Virus record (IMG/VR): IMGVR_UViG_3300042445_000818
Location: 1-31,992 of that record
DNA length: 31,992 bases
Direction: 5' to 3' (one strand)
Source of the DNA: a virus
Of this stretch, positions 7,301-31,668 are shown one piece after another; positions within the stretch are counted from its first letter, which is position 1, and the number at the start of each line of letters is the position of its first letter. A model generated the notes under the pieces. That model made no database searches. It was not told where the DNA came from and worked only from the letters and a program-made list of their open reading frames with translations. The position numbers and the translations under genes were made by a program.

Positions 7301-10245
7301 CTCGTTTCCAAAATAGTAGATATGCAATTAAGAAGTGGCAACAAGATTTAACTAAGGCAAAGAAGATTACTGTAGGTGGACCTAATTTTACTAATATCTA
7401 TGATCAAATTTCTTTAGCATTTGGTGAAGCTGACTTTAGAAATAAAGAATACTTGATGGCTCCTGTTCAAAAATTACAGAACTTAATTAATCAATATGCA
7501 AAAGCTGTAAATAAATCTGTTGGCGCTGCACTTGCTGAGTTACATGAATATGCTGAAGCCTTACATGAACCTGAACGTAGACATGTTAAGTTTTTAAAGA
7601 CAGTACCGTTAAGCGTTAACAAAAATTTAGTTGATAGAAATGGTAATCCTACTAGCGCAGCTGATGAAAGAGAAAAGATATTAAGAGCTATAGCTACTAC
7701 TAACAGTTTGTCTGATAATCAAATACAAGCATTGCGTAATAAACTAGAAGACCTTGTGGCTAAGTATAAAGACCCAGCTGGTGAAGGTGCATATAAATCT
7801 ATTGATGAACAAAGTGCCGATTACAACGTAACTGCTGAGTTAAATTCACAAGATGTCCAACAAATATTAGCTATATATAATAAAAGCCCTAATAAAAAAT
7901 TATTAGACGAAGTTATTGCGGCACTTAAACCTATACAAGATGCAACCATAGAACTAAATAAACAAGGTAACTATTGGTCTAACTCTACAGATAATATTAA
8001 ACGGTTCTACAATTGGCAGCACTATATACCATTAAAAGGAAGACCAGCAAGTAAGATGCCTAATAACGTAGCAGACTTAGAATTAGATGATAAACGTTTA
8101 AGTGCTGAGTTAAAAGATTCACCTTATGCATTTGAGGGTAGATTAACTGAGGCTGAAGATCCTATTATACAAACAATGGTTGAAGGCGCGTTGGCTGCTG
8201 CAAGGGCTGGTAGAAAAGGTTTAACTCAATCTATTAAAAATGCAGTGAATCAAAAAATAATTGATGGTGATATTGTAGCTAGTTATACTGCAGGAGAAAT
8301 ATACAAAGGGTTAGATGACAAAGCTAAAAATTTAATTAATCAACGTAGCTCTATTGTGCACCATAATGAAGATGGTTCTATGGACGTAATTCGTATTAAA
8401 GATCCAGCACTATTAGAATCTATACGCCGTACATATAAAGATTCACATCCTATGCTAGATATGGTTAATAGATTTACTAGTCTAATAGGTCAGTCTCATA
8501 CCCGTTATAACCCTGCGTTCCCCGTACTTAACTTTGTACGTGATACATTAACTAATGCGTTTGTGATGGCTATTGATATTGGTCCTGTAGAGGCATTTAA
8601 ATATATAGGCGCTGTGAGTGCTCAAGTCGCTAATGGCGGTTTATTTAAAGCTAATAAAGTGGCAAGGCTATATGCTAAAGGCGATATACAAGGTTTAAGA
8701 CAGTTAGCTAAAAAAGACCCATACTCAGCGGATATGATTGACTATATTGAGCAAGGCGGTCTTGTATCTATTGTGCAAGGTTTATCTGTTAAGAGTCAAT
8801 TAGGTCAATTATATAAAGAATTAAATCAAAGTAAGATTTTAAAGGTTAAAGAGCAAATAGACCCATTCTTTGATGGTTGGGTGTCTACATTTGAATTAGC
8901 CGCAAGATCAGCAGCATATAGAATAGCTAAATCAGATGCTGAAGCAAGGGGTATTAAGGGTGATGCGGCTAAAGAAGCAGGGGCTGTATTTGCAAAACAA
9001 TTAGCTAACTTTGAAGAGGTTGGTGAGTGGGGTAAAACATTAGGTGCACTATTTGTATTCTTCCGTCCGTCTGCTACAGGCGCTGTTCGTGCTTTTGAAT
9101 CTATTGGTCCTATGTTAAGAAGTTGGGAGTCAGTAAAGAAATCATTACCAGATACTATTACTAAAGATCCTAAAGCATTAGCTGAATATGAAGTTAATTG
9201 GAGAAGACAAAGTAGAACGGCTGCAACGGTTGTACTATCCTTATTAGGCGCTGGTGCTACTATATACTTAATGTCCGCGGGTTTAGCTGATGATGACGAT
9301 GAAGGTCGTAATAAGATTATTAATGATGACTTATCTCGTTGGACTCGATTTGCACGATTTGATATTGGTGAAGATAAAGTAGTACAGATACCGTGGGGCT
9401 TTGGTCTTGGTGGTTTTATGGCTGCAGGGGCTCAAATAGCAGGGGCTATGTCTTCTAAAACAAATGACTTAGCAGATATATTTAGTAATGTTATTAATAT
9501 TGGTTTAGATTCTTTTGTACCGTTACCTGTATCTAGAATTAATATGGTTGATAACCCTTCAGCATTTGTATTGGATTCTGTAACACCATCGATAGCTAGA
9601 CCTTTCTTTGAATATGCTATGAATATGAACGCATTCGGCCAAGAAATTTATAACAACAGACAATCAAGATTTGGTAATGCGTATACAGGTGGAGATAATA
9701 TTCCCGATGCATACAAAGATGCAGCTAGATTCATGGCAGATAATTGGGGTGTAGATGCAAGTCCTAATTCATTATATTTCTTTGCTAACAATTATATGGA
9801 TGGCCTAACTAGAATTATGCATAACGGATATGGTCTAGGCTTAACTCTTGCAGGTCAAAAAGATTTTGATGCTAAACGTGATTTATTTATTCTAGAAAGT
9901 TTTATTAGTACTAAATCTAACGTAGACCAAAGAGAATTTTCTAAGATGGAAGATAGTGTTAGAGAGAAAGAACGCTTGTTAAAAATGTTTAAAACTAACC
10001 CTGAAAAATACGCAGACTACTTTTCAGAACACCCGTTTGATGCATCTCTTGTAAAAATGTATAATCAGCAAGTAAATGGAAGATTGAATGATCTAAGAGA
10101 AAGAGCTAATAAAATAAGAAGAATGCCAGGTCTTAGCCCTAAAGATAGAAAGTCTTTACTTGAACCTATTAAAGAAGAACAAAACATCATTAAACGTCAG
10201 ATTACATATAACGTAAACATGATAGATGAAATAGAATCTAACTAA
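4372..10245 (+). CDS. Giant polyvalent/ejection protein with HELMH metallopeptidase motif
   Basis: This 1957-aa protein begins with a short YKLTGPNGKQYLLSGP module typical of very large podophage virion proteins. Residues about 140-330 are Gly/Ala-rich amphipathic segments (for example PTMLGGAGIARGAVG), a pattern seen in membrane-penetrating ejection proteins. Charged linkers and coiled coil run to about 760. A zincin-like domain follows: DRNNFGDRHEG, HELMH at 789-793 and a likely third ligand in KEFVAEAF (841-848). Farther on, NPAF at 1380-1383 with RD at 1390-1391 resembles the LPD38-type domain of large polyvalent proteins (from memory). A hydrophobic stretch near 1617-1635 precedes ADDDDEG. 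It probably enters the host with DNA and protects or opens the path for it. Its stop overlaps an opposite-strand stop. Confidence 0.75.
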   Translation: MARYKLTGPNGKQYLLSGPSGASKEDLVNILGTKLGTSLEEPLVTTPKEAPDATFGESIKDIGVSALQGVLGAKEAITGIADIPTMGMAGKGIAAAEKALFGGTSQEGREKLQELKSAEAQQEEKEIAETKGFLPTAKAYIERPGALAGMITESIPTMLGGAGIARGAVGSIAKLAGKKAAPLIAGAVGEGAVTAGSIAESTRQQSESGLITPEQAGVATLGGALTGGLGIFGGKVAQKLGVADIDTILAGGISGAEKKSILKAAVQGALVESTFEELPQSMQEQIMQNINLGRPPLEGVAEAGASGMLAGAVMGGTASALSQAKDNAKIANQNDPNPPPTTEDETLTGDVNKQEPAKQKLEDLDIDDILSTEEKIDEQLKSTKPRKGVQVSGGPEGGVAGVVEGADGSGVVRDRVDTKPADVGAGTQQPALTKESILGDMDAEGLQFKNTTQVRNYLKSKVNKSTLAQLELETPTLVKDLFDQRNKSLKEKLKAQKSVEEAEEVKSRLLKLEEANKQAIAKNEQELSQEQYDALHPYLKTKSSYGKEAPLTLERGIDSVAAEEAFIKKDLRDVEGFEAELTRMAQEKTQEAQTARKATIDKLMKTERLNQRQAERRVGNYKSKQYNFTKDRPYDFLTEGEFLSLQEKYDNKKAPTPAQIKEAQVRQDFINNLTPEQQASVQQKIQDNLANEQLLAKKALIKERGQKGPQGTEITPEEVETAGEFINEFSYQNLGKFLADRVKQLKGNVNIIYGKVPGNKPGMFDPSTNTITIDRNNFGDRHEGQIVTHELMHYMMDHIIDNRNVPGFLSNEQKAALNRLENLRKETVNKFGKTFTIPNLKEFVAEAFTNRDFQQALASLEPPPGKIYQKAKGLARRIAQAILDSLGLKGLKPVVLEETLDLIESIITDQNYQLPDIQKGVTGKGISFAPKQAGAPKMYDREKRLERLTVSEYHRPTTVETINKTLIGEKARDQLITRFQNSRYAIKKWQQDLTKAKKITVGGPNFTNIYDQISLAFGEADFRNKEYLMAPVQKLQNLINQYAKAVNKSVGAALAELHEYAEALHEPERRHVKFLKTVPLSVNKNLVDRNGNPTSAADEREKILRAIATTNSLSDNQIQALRNKLEDLVAKYKDPAGEGAYKSIDEQSADYNVTAELNSQDVQQILAIYNKSPNKKLLDEVIAALKPIQDATIELNKQGNYWSNSTDNIKRFYNWQHYIPLKGRPASKMPNNVADLELDDKRLSAELKDSPYAFEGRLTEAEDPIIQTMVEGALAAARAGRKGLTQSIKNAVNQKIIDGDIVASYTAGEIYKGLDDKAKNLINQRSSIVHHNEDGSMDVIRIKDPALLESIRRTYKDSHPMLDMVNRFTSLIGQSHTRYNPAFPVLNFVRDTLTNAFVMAIDIGPVEAFKYIGAVSAQVANGGLFKANKVARLYAKGDIQGLRQLAKKDPYSADMIDYIEQGGLVSIVQGLSVKSQLGQLYKELNQSKILKVKEQIDPFFDGWVSTFELAARSAAYRIAKSDAEARGIKGDAAKEAGAVFAKQLANFEEVGEWGKTLGALFVFFRPSATGAVRAFESIGPMLRSWESVKKSLPDTITKDPKALAEYEVNWRRQSRTAATVVLSLLGAGATIYLMSAGLADDDDEGRNKIINDDLSRWTRFARFDIGEDKVVQIPWGFGLGGFMAAGAQIAGAMSSKTNDLADIFSNVINIGLDSFVPLPVSRINMVDNPSAFVLDSVTPSIARPFFEYAMNMNAFGQEIYNNRQSRFGNAYTGGDNIPDAYKDAARFMADNWGVDASPNSLYFFANNYMDGLTRIMHNGYGLGLTLAGQKDFDAKRDLFILESFISTKSNVDQREFSKMEDSVREKERLLKMFKTNPEKYADYFSEHPFDASLVKMYNQQVNGRLNDLRERANKIRRMPGLSPKDRKSLLEPIKEEQNIIKRQITYNVNMIDEIESN

Positions 10246-10438
10246 CTCGCCAAGCTCTAACGCCTAAGTGATTTTCTTTTTGCGTTATATATACTCTAAT
10301 ACCTATCTTAGCTTTCTTAGCACCTGCCTCTATAGCATATACCATTTGGGCTGTTTCCATAGTAGGCACAAAAAAACTTTCTCCTATACTCATATATTCA
10401 AATGGAAATATCCATTCAGGTTCTTGTAGCTCACTCAT
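10238..10438 (-). CDS. Small conserved phage protein (66 aa)
   Basis: The sequence has FEYMSIGESFFVPT near the start and ends GVRAWRVS, with Lys/Ala-rich helix between; the pattern FxxMxxGESFFxP...RxWR looks familiar from small proteins of many phages, where function is unassigned. It is the last gene of the - strand replication operon, starting 8 bp inside the primase gene end. Its stop lies within the last codons of the + strand giant gene, so the two operons converge with no spacer. No enzymatic motif is visible. Confidence 0.7.
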   Translation of the reverse strand: MSELQEPEWIFPFEYMSIGESFFVPTMETAQMVYAIEAGAKKAKIGIRVYITQKENHLGVRAWRVS

Positions 10439-13409
10439 CTGTAGTTTTTGTTAATTCCGATATTTTTAAATTTTTAAAACAGTAACAATACATATTCCAT
10501 TCAGGAGTCGCTGCCATTTTATCCCAGTAAGTTGTCATACGAGTCTTTTTAATTTCATAATCTATATTATTAGTTTTTAATTGTTTTTTAAATGCATTTA
10601 TGTTGGATACCTTAGCTTCTGTTTTAAGATATGTTTCAAGTATGCCTGTAGGAATGCATATCATATTTTTATCATTATCAACCCTAATAACTAAACTGCC
10701 TCTAGGTTCTTCATATACTTTTTCATTTTTAATAGTTAATATGTTTTGAACATTCTTAAGAATAAATGTACCTATAATACTTTCACAATCTATACTATTA
10801 ATCTTAGCGTTCTCATTTTTGTTAGCTAACATTTTTTCAACTATAACTGTATAAATTCTTTCTAAAGGTAGTTCATCTGTTATGCCATACTCATTACATA
10901 TTTCTCCGGCACCAAAACATAGACCAATAGCCATGTGATGAAACCGTTCTGCTGGGTCCCAACCCACATCTTTAACGTATCTATCAATCCATTTTTGAAA
11001 TCTAGGACCTAATTTTTGATCCTCATCATTTGGGTCTTTAAACACCTCTCCTTTGACTTCTAAATCATAGATAGCTTGAATATATTTAGACCCTGCATGG
11101 CCATGGTGATTTAACATAACACTAAAAGTTCTTTTACCAAACAAATCGTTTTCTTGTAATGGTGCAGGTTGTCCAATATCAAACTCTACTATTCGAGCAA
11201 ATTCACCGTTTGGGTCTGAGTTTGTATCTTTTAGTTTTTGATATATAGAACTATTTGATGTCCATAAAGCCATAAGTTTAGATGAAGATTCTATAGTTCT
11301 TATAGCATTAGTAGATCCCTGAGCTTTATATTTTGTTTTACCACTAGACACCATGTGAACCATAGGAGACACTTGATCTATAGGTAGGTTAGTTACTTCG
11401 TCTATAGTAAAAGGCAAGTTACCTAATGCTGACATAATAATTTGTAGTGCATTAACTGTAGCTCCGCCTCCCGCAGTGGATTTAGAATTACCTTTGACAT
11501 ACATTTTTTCAGGATCACCCCAAGGAGAATTAGCTGCAAACATAACGCCTGTCTTACCCGCACCAGCTTCACCTGATAAACATATAACAACACCATTTAA
11601 ATCTGTGTAAGCAACTAAAGGAGAAGCAAAGCCAACTAGCATAGCAAATGCGTGCACTTCCATGCCTGGTGTATTAAAGTTTTTAACAGCTTTTTTCCAC
11701 ATATCAAAACTACCTTTAGGTGTCATAAAAAGACCATAATCTTTTGTTTGTGGAGAGTAGGCTATTGGGTTAATTGACCCGTCTCTCATATATTCTCTAC
11801 TACCTATTACAAAAGAAGTTCTCTCATCATCTGTCCAACCAAAATGCGTACGCATAATATCAGATCGACCCCTATTTCTTAAATACCCACCCCATTTAAT
11901 TATACATTCCATAAAGTGCACCACATTCTTTCTTTCAACAGTTATTGATTTTCTAGCAAAAGCATCCATAAGTTTATCAGCGGAGTACATATGAGCTAAA
12001 GGAAACGTAAATTCTATAGGTTCATCGTGAGGAAACTTAGCTCTTATTACCATTGAGTCACCTGGTCCGTCATCACCTATACATTTTATCTTTTTAATAG
12101 CTTTGAATTCTACTTCACAGATTACGATAGGAGGAGACTTAATAACTTCTCCTGTTTTTGCATCAAACTTACCTGCTACTTCCATAAAGATACCTTTACC
12201 TGGTACATTGAAGAATGGTAGCATTTGTGGGGGGTAAGTATAATTATTGTCATCATCTATCATAACCTCAGTAGACCCTACTTCAACTACTAATTTTTCT
12301 TCTACCTCTTGCCCGTCTTCTACTTCAACACTTACTACAGCAGGGACAATAGGAATAGTACGTAGTCTTCTACCAAAATATAAAGGATTAGATATTTGAC
12401 CTCGTTTAATACATCCTTCACACCCATCAGGATTAGCATTTTCAAACGACGTACATGGGTGTACACCACCAAACGAAGCTGCTTTTAATACAGTAGCTTC
12501 ACGATTATAGTTAGGAGCTTTTTCAGATATAGTATGAATAGCTGTTTCAGAATCAACACAACGGCTAGCTACCGTCAGGCAAGCAGTCCATAAATCATAA
12601 TCTACTTTGTTTTGATTTTCATAGGCATACTTAATTTGCTGACATCCTATGCCTCTAATACTTTCGTCTAATAGTTGTTCAAAACTATTTTCATATGGGC
12701 TACCACCTTGTGCTTCTCGTTCCTCTTGTGACAGACCTTTTTTAGCTTCTTTTAATATAGCTTCTATTGATAGGTCAACGGGACTTATACCATCTAAAAA
12801 TTCTTTAAATTCATCAAATACATATGTAGGTAATTCTTTGCTTAGAACTTGAGACATAGCAGGGGGATCAGCTTTCCAGTTCATGCAATTAGGCGTACGA
12901 GTGGCGCGAGCTGCATCAGCAGTTACATTAACATCTATCTTTAATTCGTTATCTAAACAAAACTTTTTAAATGTTTCTGAGTATAGCTTCCATTGTTCTA
13001 TCTCAATGTCTCTATCAAAAGCCCACCATGCCCACATGCCGCGGCCAGAATCAAATCTAATAGGTTCAGGTAATCCTGTTTTTGCAAGGAAACTATTTAG
13101 TGCGTTTTCAGCTTCTTCTTTAGATGTATATTTTTTACCCTCAGTATCACTTGGGTCTACATCCAAATCAATAAATAGTGATCTAGAATATACGGCTTCT
13201 TGTTTACCGCGTTTCCAACCTTTGTATGTACTATGAGATACATAAATACTAACTCGTGATTGTTTGTGTATTTCAATCTGAGGCTCTAACTCAGCTATAG
13301 TTTCTACATAGTAATGTTTCGTTGTACCTTCTTTAGGCTCAATGGTAATAATGCAATATACACCTTTTGAGGGAAGCACCTTATTATAAAATTCTGTTAT
13401 GCTTATCAT
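10431..13409 (-). CDS. AEP-type primase fused to P-loop helicase
   Basis: With ATG at 13409 the protein has 992 residues; a GTG at 13439 would add 10, but MISITEFYNKVLP fits the usual beginning of such proteins. The primase part shows IDLDVD (80-85, the metal-binding DxD), SGRGMWAWW (121-129, where the family usually has SGxGxH) and DVNVTADAARATRTPN (from 159). A cysteine cluster HPC...C..C (H317, C319, C330, C333) precedes KRGQISNPLYFGRR. The C-terminal half has Walker A GEAGAGKT (613-620), Walker B FTIDEV (667-672) and a sensor-like TSNSS near 719, in a DUF927-like context. It likely primes and unwinds DNA at the replication fork with the polymerase at 18444. Missing His in the second primase motif is notable. 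No strong ribosome site is seen at either start. Confidence 0.85.
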   Translation of the reverse strand: MISITEFYNKVLPSKGVYCIITIEPKEGTTKHYYVETIAELEPQIEIHKQSRVSIYVSHSTYKGWKRGKQEAVYSRSLFIDLDVDPSDTEGKKYTSKEEAENALNSFLAKTGLPEPIRFDSGRGMWAWWAFDRDIEIEQWKLYSETFKKFCLDNELKIDVNVTADAARATRTPNCMNWKADPPAMSQVLSKELPTYVFDEFKEFLDGISPVDLSIEAILKEAKKGLSQEEREAQGGSPYENSFEQLLDESIRGIGCQQIKYAYENQNKVDYDLWTACLTVASRCVDSETAIHTISEKAPNYNREATVLKAASFGGVHPCTSFENANPDGCEGCIKRGQISNPLYFGRRLRTIPIVPAVVSVEVEDGQEVEEKLVVEVGSTEVMIDDDNNYTYPPQMLPFFNVPGKGIFMEVAGKFDAKTGEVIKSPPIVICEVEFKAIKKIKCIGDDGPGDSMVIRAKFPHDEPIEFTFPLAHMYSADKLMDAFARKSITVERKNVVHFMECIIKWGGYLRNRGRSDIMRTHFGWTDDERTSFVIGSREYMRDGSINPIAYSPQTKDYGLFMTPKGSFDMWKKAVKNFNTPGMEVHAFAMLVGFASPLVAYTDLNGVVICLSGEAGAGKTGVMFAANSPWGDPEKMYVKGNSKSTAGGGATVNALQIIMSALGNLPFTIDEVTNLPIDQVSPMVHMVSSGKTKYKAQGSTNAIRTIESSSKLMALWTSNSSIYQKLKDTNSDPNGEFARIVEFDIGQPAPLQENDLFGKRTFSVMLNHHGHAGSKYIQAIYDLEVKGEVFKDPNDEDQKLGPRFQKWIDRYVKDVGWDPAERFHHMAIGLCFGAGEICNEYGITDELPLERIYTVIVEKMLANKNENAKINSIDCESIIGTFILKNVQNILTIKNEKVYEEPRGSLVIRVDNDKNMICIPTGILETYLKTEAKVSNINAFKKQLKTNNIDYEIKKTRMTTYWDKMAATPEWNMYCYCFKNLKISELTKTTDE

Positions 13410-13499: not shown

Positions 13500-13802
13500 C
13501 TAAATCTCTATTGAATCCAAATATTGTTTTGCATAGCTCAGGCCAGAGACAGGTAATTTATTTTCATTAAACCCCTTGTCAAGTTCTTGCATAAATGATT
13601 CAACTTTTACTTTATTTATTTTTCTAATGTATTGACCCCTAAACCAACTATGTATCGTATAGCGTGATACACCTAGCTTACGTGCAATATATAGCGTAGG
13701 CAGCTTTGCTTTGACACATAGTTTGGCTAACTGAACCCCAAGGTTATCAGGGTTCAAAGTACTTAATGTAGCTAAAAAATCTGGACTATAGGGTCTAGCC
13801 AT
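13500..13802 (-). CDS. Small HTH DNA-binding protein
   Basis: The 100-aa protein has a helix-turn-helix in the middle: LPTLYIARKLGVSRYTIHSW, where the turn LGVS and recognition helix RYTIHSWF are clear, followed by RGQYIRKI. This is the layout of XRE-like or similar phage regulators. It begins on the A of the preceding stop (TAATG), so it is co-translated with the ssDNA-binding candidate, and it lies just upstream of a palindrome in front of the primase gene. It may tune expression of the primase and itself or act as a replication accessory factor; there is no direct proof of a target. Confidence 0.75.
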   Translation of the reverse strand: MARPYSPDFLATLSTLNPDNLGVQLAKLCVKAKLPTLYIARKLGVSRYTIHSWFRGQYIRKINKVKVESFMQELDKGFNENKLPVSGLSYAKQYLDSIEI

Positions 13803-14683
13803 TATGATTTAACCGACCATTTCTTCATCACTTCGCTAGCATTGTTTACTGGCTGAGGTGCAGGTTGGCTTGATGGTCTTAGTACAGGTTCAGATACATC
13901 TACATCAGATTTTATATCTACTGGTGTTGGAGCTGCAGTTACTTGTACTTCGCTAGATGTTTCATCTGTTTGATATACAGTTAACTTAACAGCACTTTCC
14001 GCTGCAGAAGACTTACCTTGTCTTTGTAGTACTTCTAAGTCGTTTGCATTAACAGCAGCTGCTGGGCTAAATAAAACTTTAGGTGTAGAAGCTTTAGCAT
14101 CAAACTGCATACGAGTTACTACACGACCAGCACTAACATTATTGTTAGCTAAAAGTTGAACATAAGGTCTGAATGGATACTTACCGCCTTCTTCCTTACC
14201 GAAACATGATGTAGCAGGTAAAACTAATTGCATAACATCACCAGCAGGGTCATTAGGTAATACAACAGCCATTCTCCATGATAGACGACATGCGGTGCCT
14301 GTACCATTAGCCCCTGAATTTTTAGCGCTAAATTGGCATGTATCACATGTTTTAGATTGCGGTGTTTTTACATCAATATCAGGTACACGAGAATCACTAG
14401 ACCAGCATGTAGGACTAATCTTCTCACCTTCCTTGTATGATTGTGCATAAAAAGTTCTTGATGCGGTATGTGCCATCTTAACAATTACGACGTCCATGTA
14501 ATTATTTTCTGAAACACTTACTTCTTTACCACCAACTACTTTTCTAAATGCTTTACCACGAATTGAAATACGTTTGCTACCTTGATTAATGGCACCACCA
14601 GCAACGGCTAAGGTATCTTCATCTAGCCCTGTTTGGATTAATGCGCCACTATTCTGTAATATTACTGATAATTCATTACTCAT
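13802..14683 (-). CDS. Putative Cys4 single-stranded DNA-binding protein
   Basis: The start is set at ATG 14683 because GGAG lies 6 bases before it; the GTG at 14695 gives four more residues (numbering here is from that GTG). Residues 43-80 form a strand-rich block (ISIRGKAFRKVVGG, YMDVVIV), followed by CWSSD (C97), CDTC (C117, C120) and C136, a likely zinc site, then a hydrophobic strand block (MAVVLPNDP). The C-terminal third is a flexible Pro/Ser/Val-rich tail. I recall this Cys pattern in phage proteins beside replication genes that are often left unnamed. Operon position between helicase and primase suggests coating of ssDNA, in the manner of a zinc-containing SSB, but the tail is not the usual acidic SSB tail. 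Confidence 0.6.
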   Translation of the reverse strand: MSNELSVILQNSGALIQTGLDEDTLAVAGGAINQGSKRISIRGKAFRKVVGGKEVSVSENNYMDVVIVKMAHTASRTFYAQSYKEGEKISPTCWSSDSRVPDIDVKTPQSKTCDTCQFSAKNSGANGTGTACRLSWRMAVVLPNDPAGDVMQLVLPATSCFGKEEGGKYPFRPYVQLLANNNVSAGRVVTRMQFDAKASTPKVLFSPAAAVNANDLEVLQRQGKSSAAESAVKLTVYQTDETSSEVQVTAAPTPVDIKSDVDVSEPVLRPSSQPAPQPVNNASEVMKKWSVKS

Positions 14684-14694
14684 TATATTCTCCA

Positions 14695-15108
14695 CTAATT
14701 TGACTTGCTTGTTGGTTTGCGTACAGTTATTGAGACTTCTCTCAACGTGCTGATACCAGGGGGTAGGCCCTCATCTTGACGGGTACTCATAAACTCTTTG
14801 AAATTGGTCTGACTAATACGTTGTTGCAAGAGATCGAGTGCGTTGTTTTCCACAACGTATTGCTTAAAGTTATCCCAGTCGCCACAAGTATATGTTTCTT
14901 TCAAAGACTTAATGATAGTCCCACTCCCTGTACGTATGCTATCAGCATTTATTGCATTGCAGGCTACTAACATTGCCTGTTCCAGCTGTTCTAGGTCAGC
15001 CTTTAATTCAGCATCCCTAATTTCCCACTGGTTCTTCAGTGTATTCCTCTCTGTTCTAATTGTCAAGTACGTTGTAACTAAATCATCTAACTTCATATCT
15101 TCACTCAT
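14695..15108 (-). CDS. Conserved phage replication-operon protein of unknown function
   Basis: A 137-aa protein with a strongly helical N-terminal half (RTERNTLKNQWEIRDAELKA...LEQ, probable coiled coil) and a C-terminal module beginning SIRTGSGTIIKSLKETY and ending LREVSITVRKPT. The block RTGSGTI...DW..F...ALDLLQQRI...GI is familiar from phage genes next to SSB-like genes, without a known activity. The start codon overlaps the SNF2 stop as ATGA. It may be a helicase or SSB partner; that is only suggested by neighbours. Confidence 0.7.
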   Translation of the reverse strand: MSEDMKLDDLVTTYLTIRTERNTLKNQWEIRDAELKADLEQLEQAMLVACNAINADSIRTGSGTIIKSLKETYTCGDWDNFKQYVVENNALDLLQQRISQTNFKEFMSTRQDEGLPPGISTLREVSITVRKPTSKSN

Positions 15109-24590: not shown

Positions 24591-24888
24591 CTATTCCCCC
24601 TGCTTGTTGAATGACATACTCTAATCTCATGTCAGCTAATAGTTTCTCTAACTGTGGTATTGTTTCTTTGTGTCGTCTAGCATAGTGCCAGTTAATACGA
24701 TGTGATTCTTTACTTCTAATATTTAGTTTCCATGCTATTTTACTTATCTCATGCATAATTTCATTTCGTTCTTTAGCTAATTCTAATGTTTGTGTTGTAT
24801 GCACTTTAATTTGCTCTCCTATGTGAACGTTTACTAAACCCATTGATTGTCCAAAGAATATTCTGTCTTTAGTTCGCATCTTAGTCAT
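24583..24888 (-). CDS. Hypothetical helical protein downstream of the VWA gene
   Basis: The frame opens at GTG 24909 inside the VWA gene, but ATG 24888 is preferred: AGGTGG lies upstream and the overlap is only 8 bp. The 101 residues are mostly basic helix (ELAKERNEIMHEISKIAWKL, HYARRHKETIPQLEKLLADM). No family is recognised. Direct linkage to the VWA and MoxR genes suggests a fourth member of that cassette, by position only. Confidence 0.6.
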   Translation of the reverse strand: MTKMRTKDRIFFGQSMGLVNVHIGEQIKVHTTQTLELAKERNEIMHEISKIAWKLNIRSKESHRINWHYARRHKETIPQLEKLLADMRLEYVIQQAGGIDE

Positions 24889-26053
24889 TTTTCTTAACCA
24901 CCTTGCCACTTGGTGCTACGAAGTTATTGTTCTGTGTTACAAGCCATAACGTAGGGCATTTAACGTTCCACGTTATCTCTGATTCAAGGTATCCGTCTGT
25001 GAATACAATGATTGCTTCGGCTTCCACACGTTGTTTGTTTAGGTGTTCACTCACACATGAAACCATAGTTCCACCCCCACCCTGTGGTTTAAGTAATTCT
25101 TTGATGTTGTCATAGTGTTCAGGTAAAAAGACTTGTTCACCATGCACCTCCGTATCCCACCACAACACACGCACTTTACTTGGTGTTGCCACAGAACAAA
25201 TAGATGCCAGTTCCGATGCAAACTCAGTAAGGGCTACGCTATCAATCGAACCTGATGTATCTATGGCTACCACTAACTCACCTACCGATTCGTTTTCCAT
25301 ACTTGGTAAATAAATATCATTAGCCATCTGACGTTTGTTAAACTTACGCCATGTATATTCATCATTACCTTTGGTTGCACTTGATATAAACTCGCGTAGC
25401 ACCTCTCGCCAATTCACTTTGGGTTCTAACATATCGCCAATCACGCGAGGAATCTTAGCACCCATACGACCTGCAAGTATGCCACCCTCACGTAAAGCCT
25501 TGTCAATCTTGCCTGACATTTCCTTAGCTTCTTCATCAGTCATACTCTGTGCGTTCTCGAAGTCATGCTCATCTAGTGTCTTACCTAGTGATTCACCCTT
25601 ACCTGAATCCTTGTTTTGTTTCTGTTGTTTCTTCAAGTCTTCATATATTTCACGCACCGACCAATTATGATACTTAGCATCATAGAGACCACCCTCAGGT
25701 AAGTGACACAAATCTCTATCGTTCAGATTCATAATCACATCATTGACTGCATAGTCTGTTGCTACGTTGATAGCTTGTGCATTATCCTTAAACTCTTTCT
25801 TGAATCTAGGTATATGTTTTAATGCAACGTGTAAGTTCTCATGCAATATCAAACCACGTAACTCTGCATCTGTCAGCTTAGATATAAATTCACGACCATA
25901 CTTTTTATTAACGCCGTCAGTATATGCCGTTACCTTATCCTCAATGACTGAGTTCTTACCCATGAGCATGACACCTGAATACAATGCCGTCTCACGATGT
26001 TTCATTAAGGCTATGTGTGCTTTCTTTAGCCTTGTCTCTTGAGTAATTGCCAT
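24881..26053 (-). CDS. VWA protein with N-terminal HExxH peptidase-like domain
   Basis: The 390-aa protein has two domains. The first carries LILHENLHVALKH, where HENLH (71-75) is a zincin motif, as in the DUF2201 N-terminal metallopeptidase-like region. The second is a VWA fold: AIDTSGS (D265, S267, S269) forms the MIDAS site, GGGGT with T329 and VFTDG with D353 complete it. A charged linker (about 143-200) lies between. Proteins with this architecture pair with MoxR AAA+ ATPases, which lies 12 bp upstream here. Such pairs act as chaperone-like or metal-insertion systems in bacteria; in a phage the target is unknown. GGGG before the ATG supports the start. Confidence 0.9.
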   Translation of the reverse strand: MAITQETRLKKAHIALMKHRETALYSGVMLMGKNSVIEDKVTAYTDGVNKKYGREFISKLTDAELRGLILHENLHVALKHIPRFKKEFKDNAQAINVATDYAVNDVIMNLNDRDLCHLPEGGLYDAKYHNWSVREIYEDLKKQQKQNKDSGKGESLGKTLDEHDFENAQSMTDEEAKEMSGKIDKALREGGILAGRMGAKIPRVIGDMLEPKVNWREVLREFISSATKGNDEYTWRKFNKRQMANDIYLPSMENESVGELVVAIDTSGSIDSVALTEFASELASICSVATPSKVRVLWWDTEVHGEQVFLPEHYDNIKELLKPQGGGGTMVSCVSEHLNKQRVEAEAIIVFTDGYLESEITWNVKCPTLWLVTQNNNFVAPSGKVVKKND

Positions 26054-26065
26054 GTCTATCCCCTA

Positions 26066-27139
26066 TTAAAATAATTCGTGATTCTCAGTAGCCCACTTAG
26101 CTATCTCTGCATTGTTACGTGCTAGCTTGACACCATTCTTACTACGCACCATCATGGTAAAGAATACTGCTTGAATCTCGCTACTCTCAATGCGATTCAC
26201 AAACTTCATGAACGCTGATAAGTCCTCTTGAGAGGATAGGTTATCCGTCGCTTGGAACATCAACATCAATAATGCAGAAGTCTCTGTCGGCATACTAATA
26301 TCCATGGGTTTTTCAATGATGTCTTTGAAACGAGGTAATGATTTCTCTACCGATAGGAACGCACTCATATCTGCTGATGCACTCGCACCGATAGTCCCTG
26401 CCAACGCACACATGACTGCATTGTCGCCTAGTAAGTCTTTGTAATTCACAATGACTGATGCCTTAGCCAATGAACGTGGTGAACAGAATGATAGGTTCGG
26501 CTTACTTGGTTGAAAGATATATGGGTTGTCTGCTTGGTCGCCCTCTGTATAACTTGCCAATGACCTAGGAAACATATACACCCATGCTCTGATTAACGGA
26601 TTGATTGCATTCTCTGTTGCCCATTTCAACCATGTATCAACATCAGGCTTTTGCATCTTCAATATACATACACGATTGCCTGCATGAGCCAACATACTGT
26701 CACCCACTCCGTCACTTGCATTGTTACTTGTTGCAAAAACTATCGATTCACGTGGTAGTGAAACGTCACCTACAGTTCTCTCTAACATAAGACGTGTAAA
26801 GATAACTTGCAATAGCTTTGGTGATTTCATAAACTCGTCGAGTAAGATAACCTTAGGCTTTGGTGAATCTAGTTTAAACAATTTACCCACATAACTATCC
26901 AACGTCTTTGTATCATGGTTGGGTATCGTCATAGCAATATCACTCATATCTTTCACAGGGCAATCTACATAGATGTAGTCATAGCCATCACCTAAATCTT
27001 CCTCTATCATTTTAAGTAATGACGTCTTACCACAACCAGGCTCAGATTGGATTACAGGCGTAAGTTCCTTACCTATCGTGGGTATCAATACTCTTAGTTC
27101 ATCAATCGTTACATTATTTACTGTGTTTATTGTAGCCAT
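26066..27139 (-). CDS. MoxR-type AAA+ ATPase
   Basis: A 357-aa AAA+ protein with Walker A EPGCGKTS (33-40), Walker B VILLDEF (97-103), sensor 1 ATSN (136-139) and a conserved arginine in the region of PRSLAS. The single-domain layout, small lid and adjacent VWA gene mark it as MoxR-like rather than a clamp loader or helicase. AAGGAGACG precedes the ATG. ATP hydrolysis likely remodels a substrate bound by the VWA protein, while the protein encoded upstream at 27150 may be the third subunit. Base composition is visibly less AT-rich than that of the polymerase region. Confidence 0.9.
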   Translation of the reverse strand: MATINTVNNVTIDELRVLIPTIGKELTPVIQSEPGCGKTSLLKMIEEDLGDGYDYIYVDCPVKDMSDIAMTIPNHDTKTLDSYVGKLFKLDSPKPKVILLDEFMKSPKLLQVIFTRLMLERTVGDVSLPRESIVFATSNNASDGVGDSMLAHAGNRVCILKMQKPDVDTWLKWATENAINPLIRAWVYMFPRSLASYTEGDQADNPYIFQPSKPNLSFCSPRSLAKASVIVNYKDLLGDNAVMCALAGTIGASASADMSAFLSVEKSLPRFKDIIEKPMDISMPTETSALLMLMFQATDNLSSQEDLSAFMKFVNRIESSEIQAVFFTMMVRSKNGVKLARNNAEIAKWATENHELF

Positions 27140-30859: not shown

Positions 30860-30886
30860 GTTGCTATCTCCTTTGTTAGTTTGTCG

Positions 30887-30902
30887 TTCACGTTGCCGTG
30901 AA
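30887..30902 (-). promoter_or_regulatory. Leader hairpin TTCACG-N4-CGTGAA (copy 2)
   Basis: TTCACG-TTGC-CGTGAA (+ strand) forms a perfect 6-bp stem, 27 bases upstream of ATG 30859. The - strand 3' flank GTGAACGACAAACTAA matches the flank of the copy before the VRR-NUC gene with one difference. Confidence 0.7.
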
Positions 30903-30966
30903 TTTGGTTAAAGTTTTGTATGTGTAGATAGTATGACGTATTATTTTCTCTCCCCACATAACTACC

Positions 30967-30992
30967 ATTATACTATAACTTGACTTATAAAC
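30967..30992 (-). promoter_or_regulatory. Repeated 26-bp promoter-like element (copy 2)
   Basis: On the - strand GTTTATAAGTCAAGTTAT is followed after AG by a perfect TATAAT (30972-30967). It would start a transcript about 100 bases before the first gene of the - strand block, passing through the leader hairpin at 30887. Confidence 0.65.
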
Positions 30993-31025
30993 CTATAACT
31001 ATACATATCTTTTTTACTTTTAGCT

Positions 31026-31052
31026 GTTCTACGTGTTCTAGGGTTTGTTCTA
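31026..31052. repeat. GTTCTA hexamer cluster, left group
   Basis: Three exact GTTCTA copies start at 31026, 31035 and 31047, with spacings of 9 and 12 bases. A reverse-oriented TAGAAC follows at 31069. Confidence 0.75.
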
Positions 31053-31058
31053 GTTTTT

Positions 31059-31070
31059 ACTTGACATATA
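31059..31070 (-). promoter_or_regulatory. Degenerate copy of the promoter-like motif at the repeat cluster
   Basis: ACTTGACATATA on the + strand (TATATGTCAAGT on the -) repeats the core of the 26-bp element and overlaps a TAGAAC hexamer at 31069. No -10 box follows at the expected distance, so it is probably a binding site rather than a promoter. Confidence 0.35.
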
Positions 31071-31120
31071 GAACAGGATTTGGTTTGGGTTGAGTGATTT
31101 TGGTTTGGTTTAAGTCTTTG

Positions 31121-31162
31121 TTTTTATTTATTTATTTATTATTTATTATTATTATTATATTA
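31121..31162. other. 42-bp pure A/T tract, candidate DNA-unwinding element
   Basis: All 42 bases are A or T, in TTTA and TTA repeats. From 31075 to 31170 the + strand has only one C. Such a stretch melts easily, as in origin unwinding elements, and is placed between the two groups of GTTCTA hexamers. Confidence 0.6.
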
Positions 31163-31167
31163 GTATA

Positions 31168-31192
31168 GTTCTATGCTTGTTCTAATGTTCTA
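31168..31192. repeat. GTTCTA hexamer cluster, inner group
   Basis: Exact GTTCTA copies start at 31168, 31179 and 31187 (spacings 11 and 8), directly after the A/T tract. A single TAGAAC at 31235 follows. Confidence 0.75.
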
Positions 31193-31308
31193 GCGTTTTT
31201 AACATATGCCTTCCTCGCGACGAATTTTTTAGTTTAGAACAGATTGCACTGCGAAAAAGGTCGCCTTGTCTTCACAAAGTTCAAAACCTACCTATACCTA
31301 AAAAACCT

Positions 31309-31407
31309 TAGAACACTAGAACAAACCATATAAATCAAACACTTAGTATAGAACAAGATTAGAACAATTTAGAACAAGACTTAGAACAACTTAGAACAAC
31401 TTGGAAC
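31309..31407. repeat. TAGAAC hexamer array, right group, helically phased
   Basis: Exact TAGAAC copies start at 31309, 31317, 31349, 31360, 31370, 31382 and 31392, with a one-mismatch copy TGGAAC at 31402. From 31349 onward the steps are 11, 10, 12, 10 and 10 bases, about one turn of DNA, so bound proteins would sit on one face. Most units read TTAGAACAA. Confidence 0.8.
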
Positions 31408-31457
31408 AACTCTATGGCTTATTACACTCATACACGATACATCAACTAAGAAACAAA

Positions 31458-31473
31458 TTCACGACTACGTGAA
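31458..31473 (+). promoter_or_regulatory. Leader hairpin copy in opposite orientation near the origin
   Basis: TTCACG-ACTA-CGTGAA with flanking A and T gives a 7-bp stem. Its + strand flanks (CAAATTCACG on the left) match the - strand flanks of copy 2, so it is inverted relative to the gene leaders, and no gene follows it. CACGACTACG from this site recurs at 31497-31506. Confidence 0.55.
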
Positions 31474-31589
31474 TGGCTAAATAAACTTCTTGACCACACG
31501 ACTACGCGACAACGACGTCGACGACACAGAACTGGTATCAATGTGGCTAGGGATATAATTAAACGATGTGTCCAACCTCCGCAGGCTAC

Positions 31590-31605
31590 GCAAGCGCCCG
31601 CTCGC
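31590..31605. repeat. GC-rich imperfect palindrome
   Basis: GCAAGCG-CC-CGCTCGC pairs with one mismatch in an otherwise AT-rich region. No T-run flanks it on either side, so it is more likely a protein site or a minor RNA structure than a terminator. Confidence 0.35.
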
Positions 31606-31633
31606 TATGTAACTGGTTTCAAAAATTTAGGCC

Positions 31634-31659
31634 AAAAAAAAGGAGGCCCGAAGGCCTCC
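31634..31659 (-). terminator. Intrinsic terminator with UUCG loop
   Basis: On the - strand GGAGGCC-TTCG-GGCCTCC (31659-31642) is a perfect 7-bp stem with the stable UUCG loop, followed by eight T (31641-31634). It lies 10 bases after the stop of the gene at 31669 and ends that transcript before the origin-like region. It works in one direction only. Confidence 0.92.
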
Positions 31660-31668
31660 CTAGATTTA

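Follow-up and report, generated by a model that had tools for sequence, protein, structure and literature searches.

Ori-lambda combines a phage-encoded initiator, O, with iterons and an A/T-rich region, and the alpha protein of P4 is a primase, helicase and origin-binding protein in one, with iterons at ori and crr; the type I iteron of P4 (GGTGAACAG) resembles the GAACA core of the motif described below. The origins of SaPIs and PICIs consist of two iteron sets flanking an A/T-rich region and are driven by Rep or Pri-Rep (PMC6092414, PMC7581432). In SaPI Rep, it is the C-terminal domain that recognises these iterons; Cch and SaPIbov1 Rep are related proteins (PMC7581432). In the PLE replicons of Vibrio cholerae, the RepA_N domain covaries with the ori iterons (PMC8263062). 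The hexamer array analysed here is very probably the iteron origin of an uncultivated phage, driven by a primase-helicase whose C-terminal half has been exchanged together with the array.

The window, a whole IMG/VR record of 31,992 nt, contains 40 TAGAAC hexamers on its two strands (shuffle mean 21.7, sd 4.3, maximum 34). Fifteen of the 40 exact TAGAAC/GTTCTA copies fall within 372 bp (31026-31397), and the remaining 25 are scattered over the record at about the number expected by chance. The dense cluster noted by a sequence-only reading of this DNA is therefore well founded, since by a scan statistic the densest 6-mer cluster per 400 bp held at most eight copies in 100 second-order Markov sequences, compared with 15 in the array. 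TAGAACA is found 14 times inside the array and six times outside it, and TAGAACAA eight times and once, respectively. The array occupies part of an intergenic gap of 809 bp (30860-31668), bounded on one side by the first leftward early gene and on the other by a terminator; no listed ORF of at least 60 aa overlaps it, and an Rfam scan of the window gave no match. In window order, the iterons comprise three on the minus strand and one on the plus strand, the A/T tract, three minus, one plus and finally eight plus (seven exact copies and an imperfect one). Thus, the orientation does flip from left to right as had been proposed, but the axis is not the A/T tract, because three GTTCTA copies sit to the right of this tract and the inversion runs across 31193-31308 (Table 1).

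Table 1. Features of the array, its surroundings and the proposed initiator, in window coordinates.
Feature	Position	Strand	Remarks
Probable -10 box (TATAAT) of the leftward early promoter, preceded by TATAAGTCAAGTTATAG	30967-30972	-	Invariant ATAATG..TTATGTGGGGAGAGAA in alignment
GTTCTA iteron triplet, promoter side (31026, 31035, 31047)	31026-31052	-	Exact matches; spacing 9 and 12 bp; a triplet at 9-12 bp spacing is kept at the same place in most relatives
Single iteron, opposite in orientation to the adjoining triplet	31069-31074	+	Exact match; counterpart in relatives TTGTTCCTATnnGTCAAG
TTAAGTCTTTG box, left partner of the inverted pair with 31334-31345	31110-31120		Kept as CAAGCACTTA or TAAGTGCTTGAT in close relatives
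A/T tract, putative duplex-unwinding element	31120-31167		96% A+T, tied as the most A+T-rich 48 bp of the record; at the corresponding place in nine aligned sequences and visible in other printed arrays
Iterons 31168, 31179 and 31187, the last two an 8-bp doublet	31168-31192	-	Exact matches; a 7-9 bp doublet is present in nearly all measured arrays
Centre of inversion (~115 bp) with conserved TTGCACTGCGAAAAA (31244-31258) and an extra iteron (31235, +)	31193-31308		Alignment; TTTTCGCAGTG invariant across nine aligned sequences
Iteron doublet TAGAACACTAGAAC (31309, 31317)	31309-31322	+	Spacing 8 bp; mirrors the other doublet in relatives
ATCAAACACTTA box, right partner of the inverted pair	31334-31345		TAAGTnnTTGATT invariant in nine aligned sequences
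Distal direct repeats (31349, 31360, 31370, 31382, 31392) and one-mismatch 16th iteron TTGGAACAA (31401-31409)	31349-31409	+	Spacing 10-12 bp
Intrinsic terminator of the 31669-31989 gene, far side of the array	31640-31661	-	Terminator call
Proposed initiator, 992 aa: AEP primase (1-210), DUF927/Cch-like helicase (~490-870), C-terminal winged-helix-like domain (~875-985)	10431-13409	-	Sequence and predicted fold
100-aa ORF adjoining the initiator, weakly class-following	13500-13802	-	86/84% identity at same motif, 63-73% at different motif

A sigma-70 scan found no full-consensus promoter. Other repeated elements surround the array. The dyad TTCACGnnnnCGTGAA occurs three times in the window (28101, 30887 and 31458), two copies lying in leader regions and the third beyond the origin, and different dyads are repeated at similar places in other loci (TTTCCACG..CGTGGAAA in L071 and CGGGAACTCCCG in L030), so that the genome-specific dyads form a second genome-specific motif set. 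Many genomes also repeat the element AACTTGACATA / TATGTMAAGTT near the origin and at the early promoter (30980-31075 in the window).

Relatives were searched for with the nearby ATPase and a flanking small ORF, which gave about 100 loci. When only TAGAAC was counted, a cluster was present in a minority of these loci, but with de novo 6-mer clustering, most of the loci reaching that far proved to have an array at the corresponding position, showing that the apparent absence was due to switching of the motif. Dozens of related uncultivated phages carry an array upstream of the early genes, made up of 8-16 copies at stereotyped distances, and its motif is largely uniform within one genome and different between genomes (TAGAACA, TGGAACA, TTGAACA, CAGAACA, ATGAACC/A, GAACT, CCGAACA, GTGAAC, TGGAATT and TGACACA). 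The 33 arrays measured in detail have the same order with small variations: inner doublets spaced at 7-9 bp, usually about 100-125 bp between the doublets, and outer sets at ~9-12 bp. All six genomes checked have one array each. Layout and place are thus conserved in relatives, but the hexamer TAGAAC itself is not, even at about 95% core-gene identity, because the motif has switched. Lack of conservation in close relatives, which the sequence-only reading had named as evidence against an origin, is accordingly a misleading measure if TAGAAC alone is counted.

With the iterons masked, the array spacers are 77% identical within a motif class and 49% between classes, and the flanks show little class effect (84% within and 77% between on one side, 80% and 76% on the other). 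Since the spacers track class and the flanks hardly do so, the ~400-bp array is exchanged as a unit. Comparison of the sequences indicates that the initiator block is likewise exchanged as a unit and that most genes in between do not follow class. No array was found in the part of genome G054 examined, nor in the parts read of the distant named relatives Rollin, RHph_TM3_14A and KPP25; the comparable site of RHph_TM3_14A is an A+T-rich gap of 770 bp, and the repeats of KPP25 are unrelated. A DNA search with the array region against named phages gave no match. A second IMG/VR record, 3300042406_000036 (G037, L262-L264), overlaps window positions 1-21808 (21.8 kb) at 100%, adds 23.5 kb and evidently comes from the same virus, judging by this overlap. 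The genome is at least 55 kb long and encodes a DNA polymerase, an exonuclease and a DNA-ejection-type protein, and related contigs are 60-67 kb.

The proposed initiator probably starts at ATG 13409 rather than GTG 13439, since relatives have stops just upstream. It matches PF06048 (DUF927; E=1e-16) and, weakly, the sequence of Cch; with 22 bits against a cut-off of 700 for NCBIfam SCCmet_Cch1 (NF047345), it appears to be a distant relative of Cch1 and not Cch1 itself. The predicted model (pLDDT 82) has the DUF927/AAA+ MCM-like helicase fold, with residues 390-990 matching SCCmec Cch (5dgk, Z 30.7) and SaPIbov1 Rep (8tch, Z 27.5) over alignments of 464-490 residues, and residues 1-206 matching the AEP protein S-2L PrimPol (Z 19.1). 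Invariant residues include D81, D83 and a cysteine cluster, and we take the two aspartates to fit an AEP primase. When folded alone, the C-terminal domain (pLDDT 85) has its best matches, which are modest, in Cch (Z 8.7) and SaPIbov1 Rep (Z 8.3), followed by other winged-helix DNA-binding proteins; Foldseek gave a weak match (E 0.17). By its best matches, the domain probably shares the fold of the Cch/SaPIbov1 Rep DNA-binding domain. Elsewhere in the replication module, a DUF2201 metallopeptidase/VWA-like protein that is ~95% conserved in close relatives adjoins an AAA ATPase (24881-27139). An alphaproteobacterial MAG contig (L268, JABAZY010000021.1) encodes a 67% helicase relative and may hint at the host or be a misbinned phage; the contig piece has no array.

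The primase-helicase is the protein whose divergence best follows the motif. Between the window and genomes G001 (TAG), G002 and G005 (both TGG) and G003 (TTG), the ATPase is 95-96% identical and the ORF 13802-14695 93, 94, 88 and 88% identical, compared with 92% (G001), 64 and 53% (G002 and G005, the 64% spanning 60% of the protein) and 37% (G003) for the 992-aa primase-helicase. The C-terminal domain is 87% and 86% identical in same-motif pairs and 36-49% in different-motif pairs. Against G002, the drop starts near residue 350, residues 1-350 being 70-86% identical in 50-residue bins; G002 and G005 share 94% identity in the helicase, 84-86% in the C-terminal part and 77% in the N-termini. 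When ORFs were ranked by same- minus different-motif identity, a scan in which 39 ORFs were absent from at least one of the four comparison genomes, the initiator came first, followed by its small neighbours (13500-13802 and 10238-10438), and PolA had a weak class gap. Tree distances for PolA and the initiator C-terminal half are 0.28 and 1.37, respectively, between the window and G002, and 0.10 and 0.07 between the window and G001. Partial Mantel tests over 30 genomes, which contain few independent switches among very close relatives and motif classes assigned by hand, associated motif class with the C-terminal domain given PolA (r=0.22, p=0.003), with p=0.12 for the helicase and p=0.04 for the N-terminus.

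The correspondence has exceptions. G018 and G019 prefer TGAACT and GGAACT, respectively, though their C-terminal domains are 97% identical, and identical motifs recur with distant initiators, so that motif and protein are not related one-to-one. At the position of R957 (992-aa numbering), close to where the first wing strand ends, the initiator has R or K in GAAC lineages and in the GACAC one, whereas either H or Q is present in both of the separate GAATT lineages, and this position is a candidate base-reading residue. Recoding of an in-frame TAG was suspected in two initiators and rejected: in G002 the TAG lies upstream of the real start, and in G005 re-reading revealed no inner stop.

An iteron-type origin, as the sequence-only reading had suggested, is the best reading of the array, given its conserved layout, its single occurrence in each genome checked and the tracking of its motif with the primase-helicase. 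Many repeat copies above chance lie in intergenic DNA next to an A/T-rich region of unwinding type, and the motif class covaries strongly with the primase-helicase, as expected of a cognate initiator, although the pairing itself is a prediction. Six relatives have their cumulative GC-skew minimum, proposed earlier as a check, within 1-4 kb of the array, a signal that is, however, inseparable from gene direction. On these computational results, and by family resemblance to SaPI-type initiators, the C-terminal winged-helix-like domain of the primase-helicase would bind NNGAACA-type iterons, and initiator oligomers would assemble on the two inverted iteron sets, open the nearby A/T tract and load their own MCM-like helicase ring, with priming by the AEP domain. 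The phage PolA (18444-20312) would then extend the primers, and replication would proceed bidirectionally from the array. In this scheme, the iteron set and the C-terminal half of the initiator would be one specificity module spread over two loci about 17.6 kb (~18 kb) apart, both halves of which relatives have swapped together.

Situated immediately upstream of the leftward early promoter, at a place where many phages use repeated operators, the array could instead be the operator of a transcription regulator of the early operon, with the motif following that regulator. We consider this unlikely, since the protein that best follows the motif is the primase-helicase and not a repressor, most copies are distant from the promoter and flank both the A/T tract and the ~115-bp gap, and an origin accounts better for inverted sets of ~15 copies about a melting-type tract; the iterons may well also autoregulate. 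The single intergenic array per genome would also suit a packaging (pac/cos), terminal-repeat or partition site, comparable to the short-repeat blocks near the T7 ends, and the ends of the G014 contig overlap by 1229 bp at 97%, indicating a circular or redundant map. Nevertheless, the G014 ends are not at its array and the motif follows a replication protein, making such a site very improbable, with the qualification that a linked terminase could be among the 39 ORFs missing from some genomes in the ORF comparison. Finally, slippage and conversion can spread short intergenic repeats, and the differences between genomes could in principle be drift and homogenisation after neutral expansion. The copies, however, are irregularly spaced on both strands within unrelated spacer, their spacing is kept even where the motif differs from genome to genome, and the motif follows a single protein, so that we give this explanation hardly any credence.

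For a large group of uncultivated phages, the origin reading predicts both an origin and its cognate initiator, and it raises the testable question of why origin specificity switched. We tentatively suggest that origin specificity is a rapidly switching trait of this tailed-phage group, with joint exchange of the two unlinked loci among near-identical phages dividing it into mutually non-interchangeable replication types. As a driver of the switching, an agent that attacks or exploits one origin type, such as satellites, decoy origins, origin-directed nucleases or co-infecting relatives, is conceivable, and this too is speculative. Decoy lambda origins interfere (PMC4488673) and, together with the PLE (PMC8263062) and geminivirus (PMC12548392) systems, indicate that origin specificity can be under such pressure. 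The at least nine motif types, which include closely related pairs, offer a natural series for working out the DNA-reading code of the winged-helix-like domain, with the R957 position as a first lead.

The analysis points to an iteron origin whose initiator is SaPI-like, with the two loci unusual in being unlinked and their specificity switching naturally, and the open-access literature searched contained no description of such an arrangement. The array system shares a phage-encoded initiator, iterons and an A/T-rich region with lambda, but the lambda iterons lie inside the O gene and O is neither helicase nor primase. P4 alpha is likewise a combined primase-helicase-origin-binding protein, but it is a satellite protein with another arrangement. 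Close relatives among geminiviruses also differ in a short iteron together with the recognising domain of Rep, apparently under diversifying selection (PMC12548392), although these are rolling-circle ssDNA plant viruses with an unrelated initiator. PLEs resemble the present phages in that modular pairs of initiator DNA-binding domain and origin are swapped between close relatives; they differ in being satellites, in having an unrelated RepA_N initiator without helicase or primase, and in that cognate specificity was demonstrated by experiment.

The likeness to SaPIs and PICIs extends to the short iterons, present in many copies and as two inverted sets, to the A/T-rich tract that separates the outer sets, and to an initiator that joins an AEP primase and a self-loading helicase to a C-terminal DNA-binding domain and has allelic variants. 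Here, however, the carriers are tailed phages of about 60-65 kb and not satellites, a status at odds with the genome length and the phage replication and ejection genes described above. A distance of 17.6 kb separates array and initiator gene, whereas the SaPI/PICI origin is immediately 3' of rep or pri-rep, and the A/T tract belongs to one half of the array, where it is flanked by doublet and triplet, separate from the inversion centre. With SaPIbov1 Rep (8tch) and SCCmec Cch (5dgk), the initiator shares DUF927 and the predicted fold of residues 390-990, including the C-terminal domain, at a sequence identity of only ~12-14%; it differs from both in being phage-encoded and fused to an N-terminal AEP primase like S-2L PrimPol. 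The SaPI/SCCmec type of self-loading initiator would thereby extend to autonomous tailed phages.
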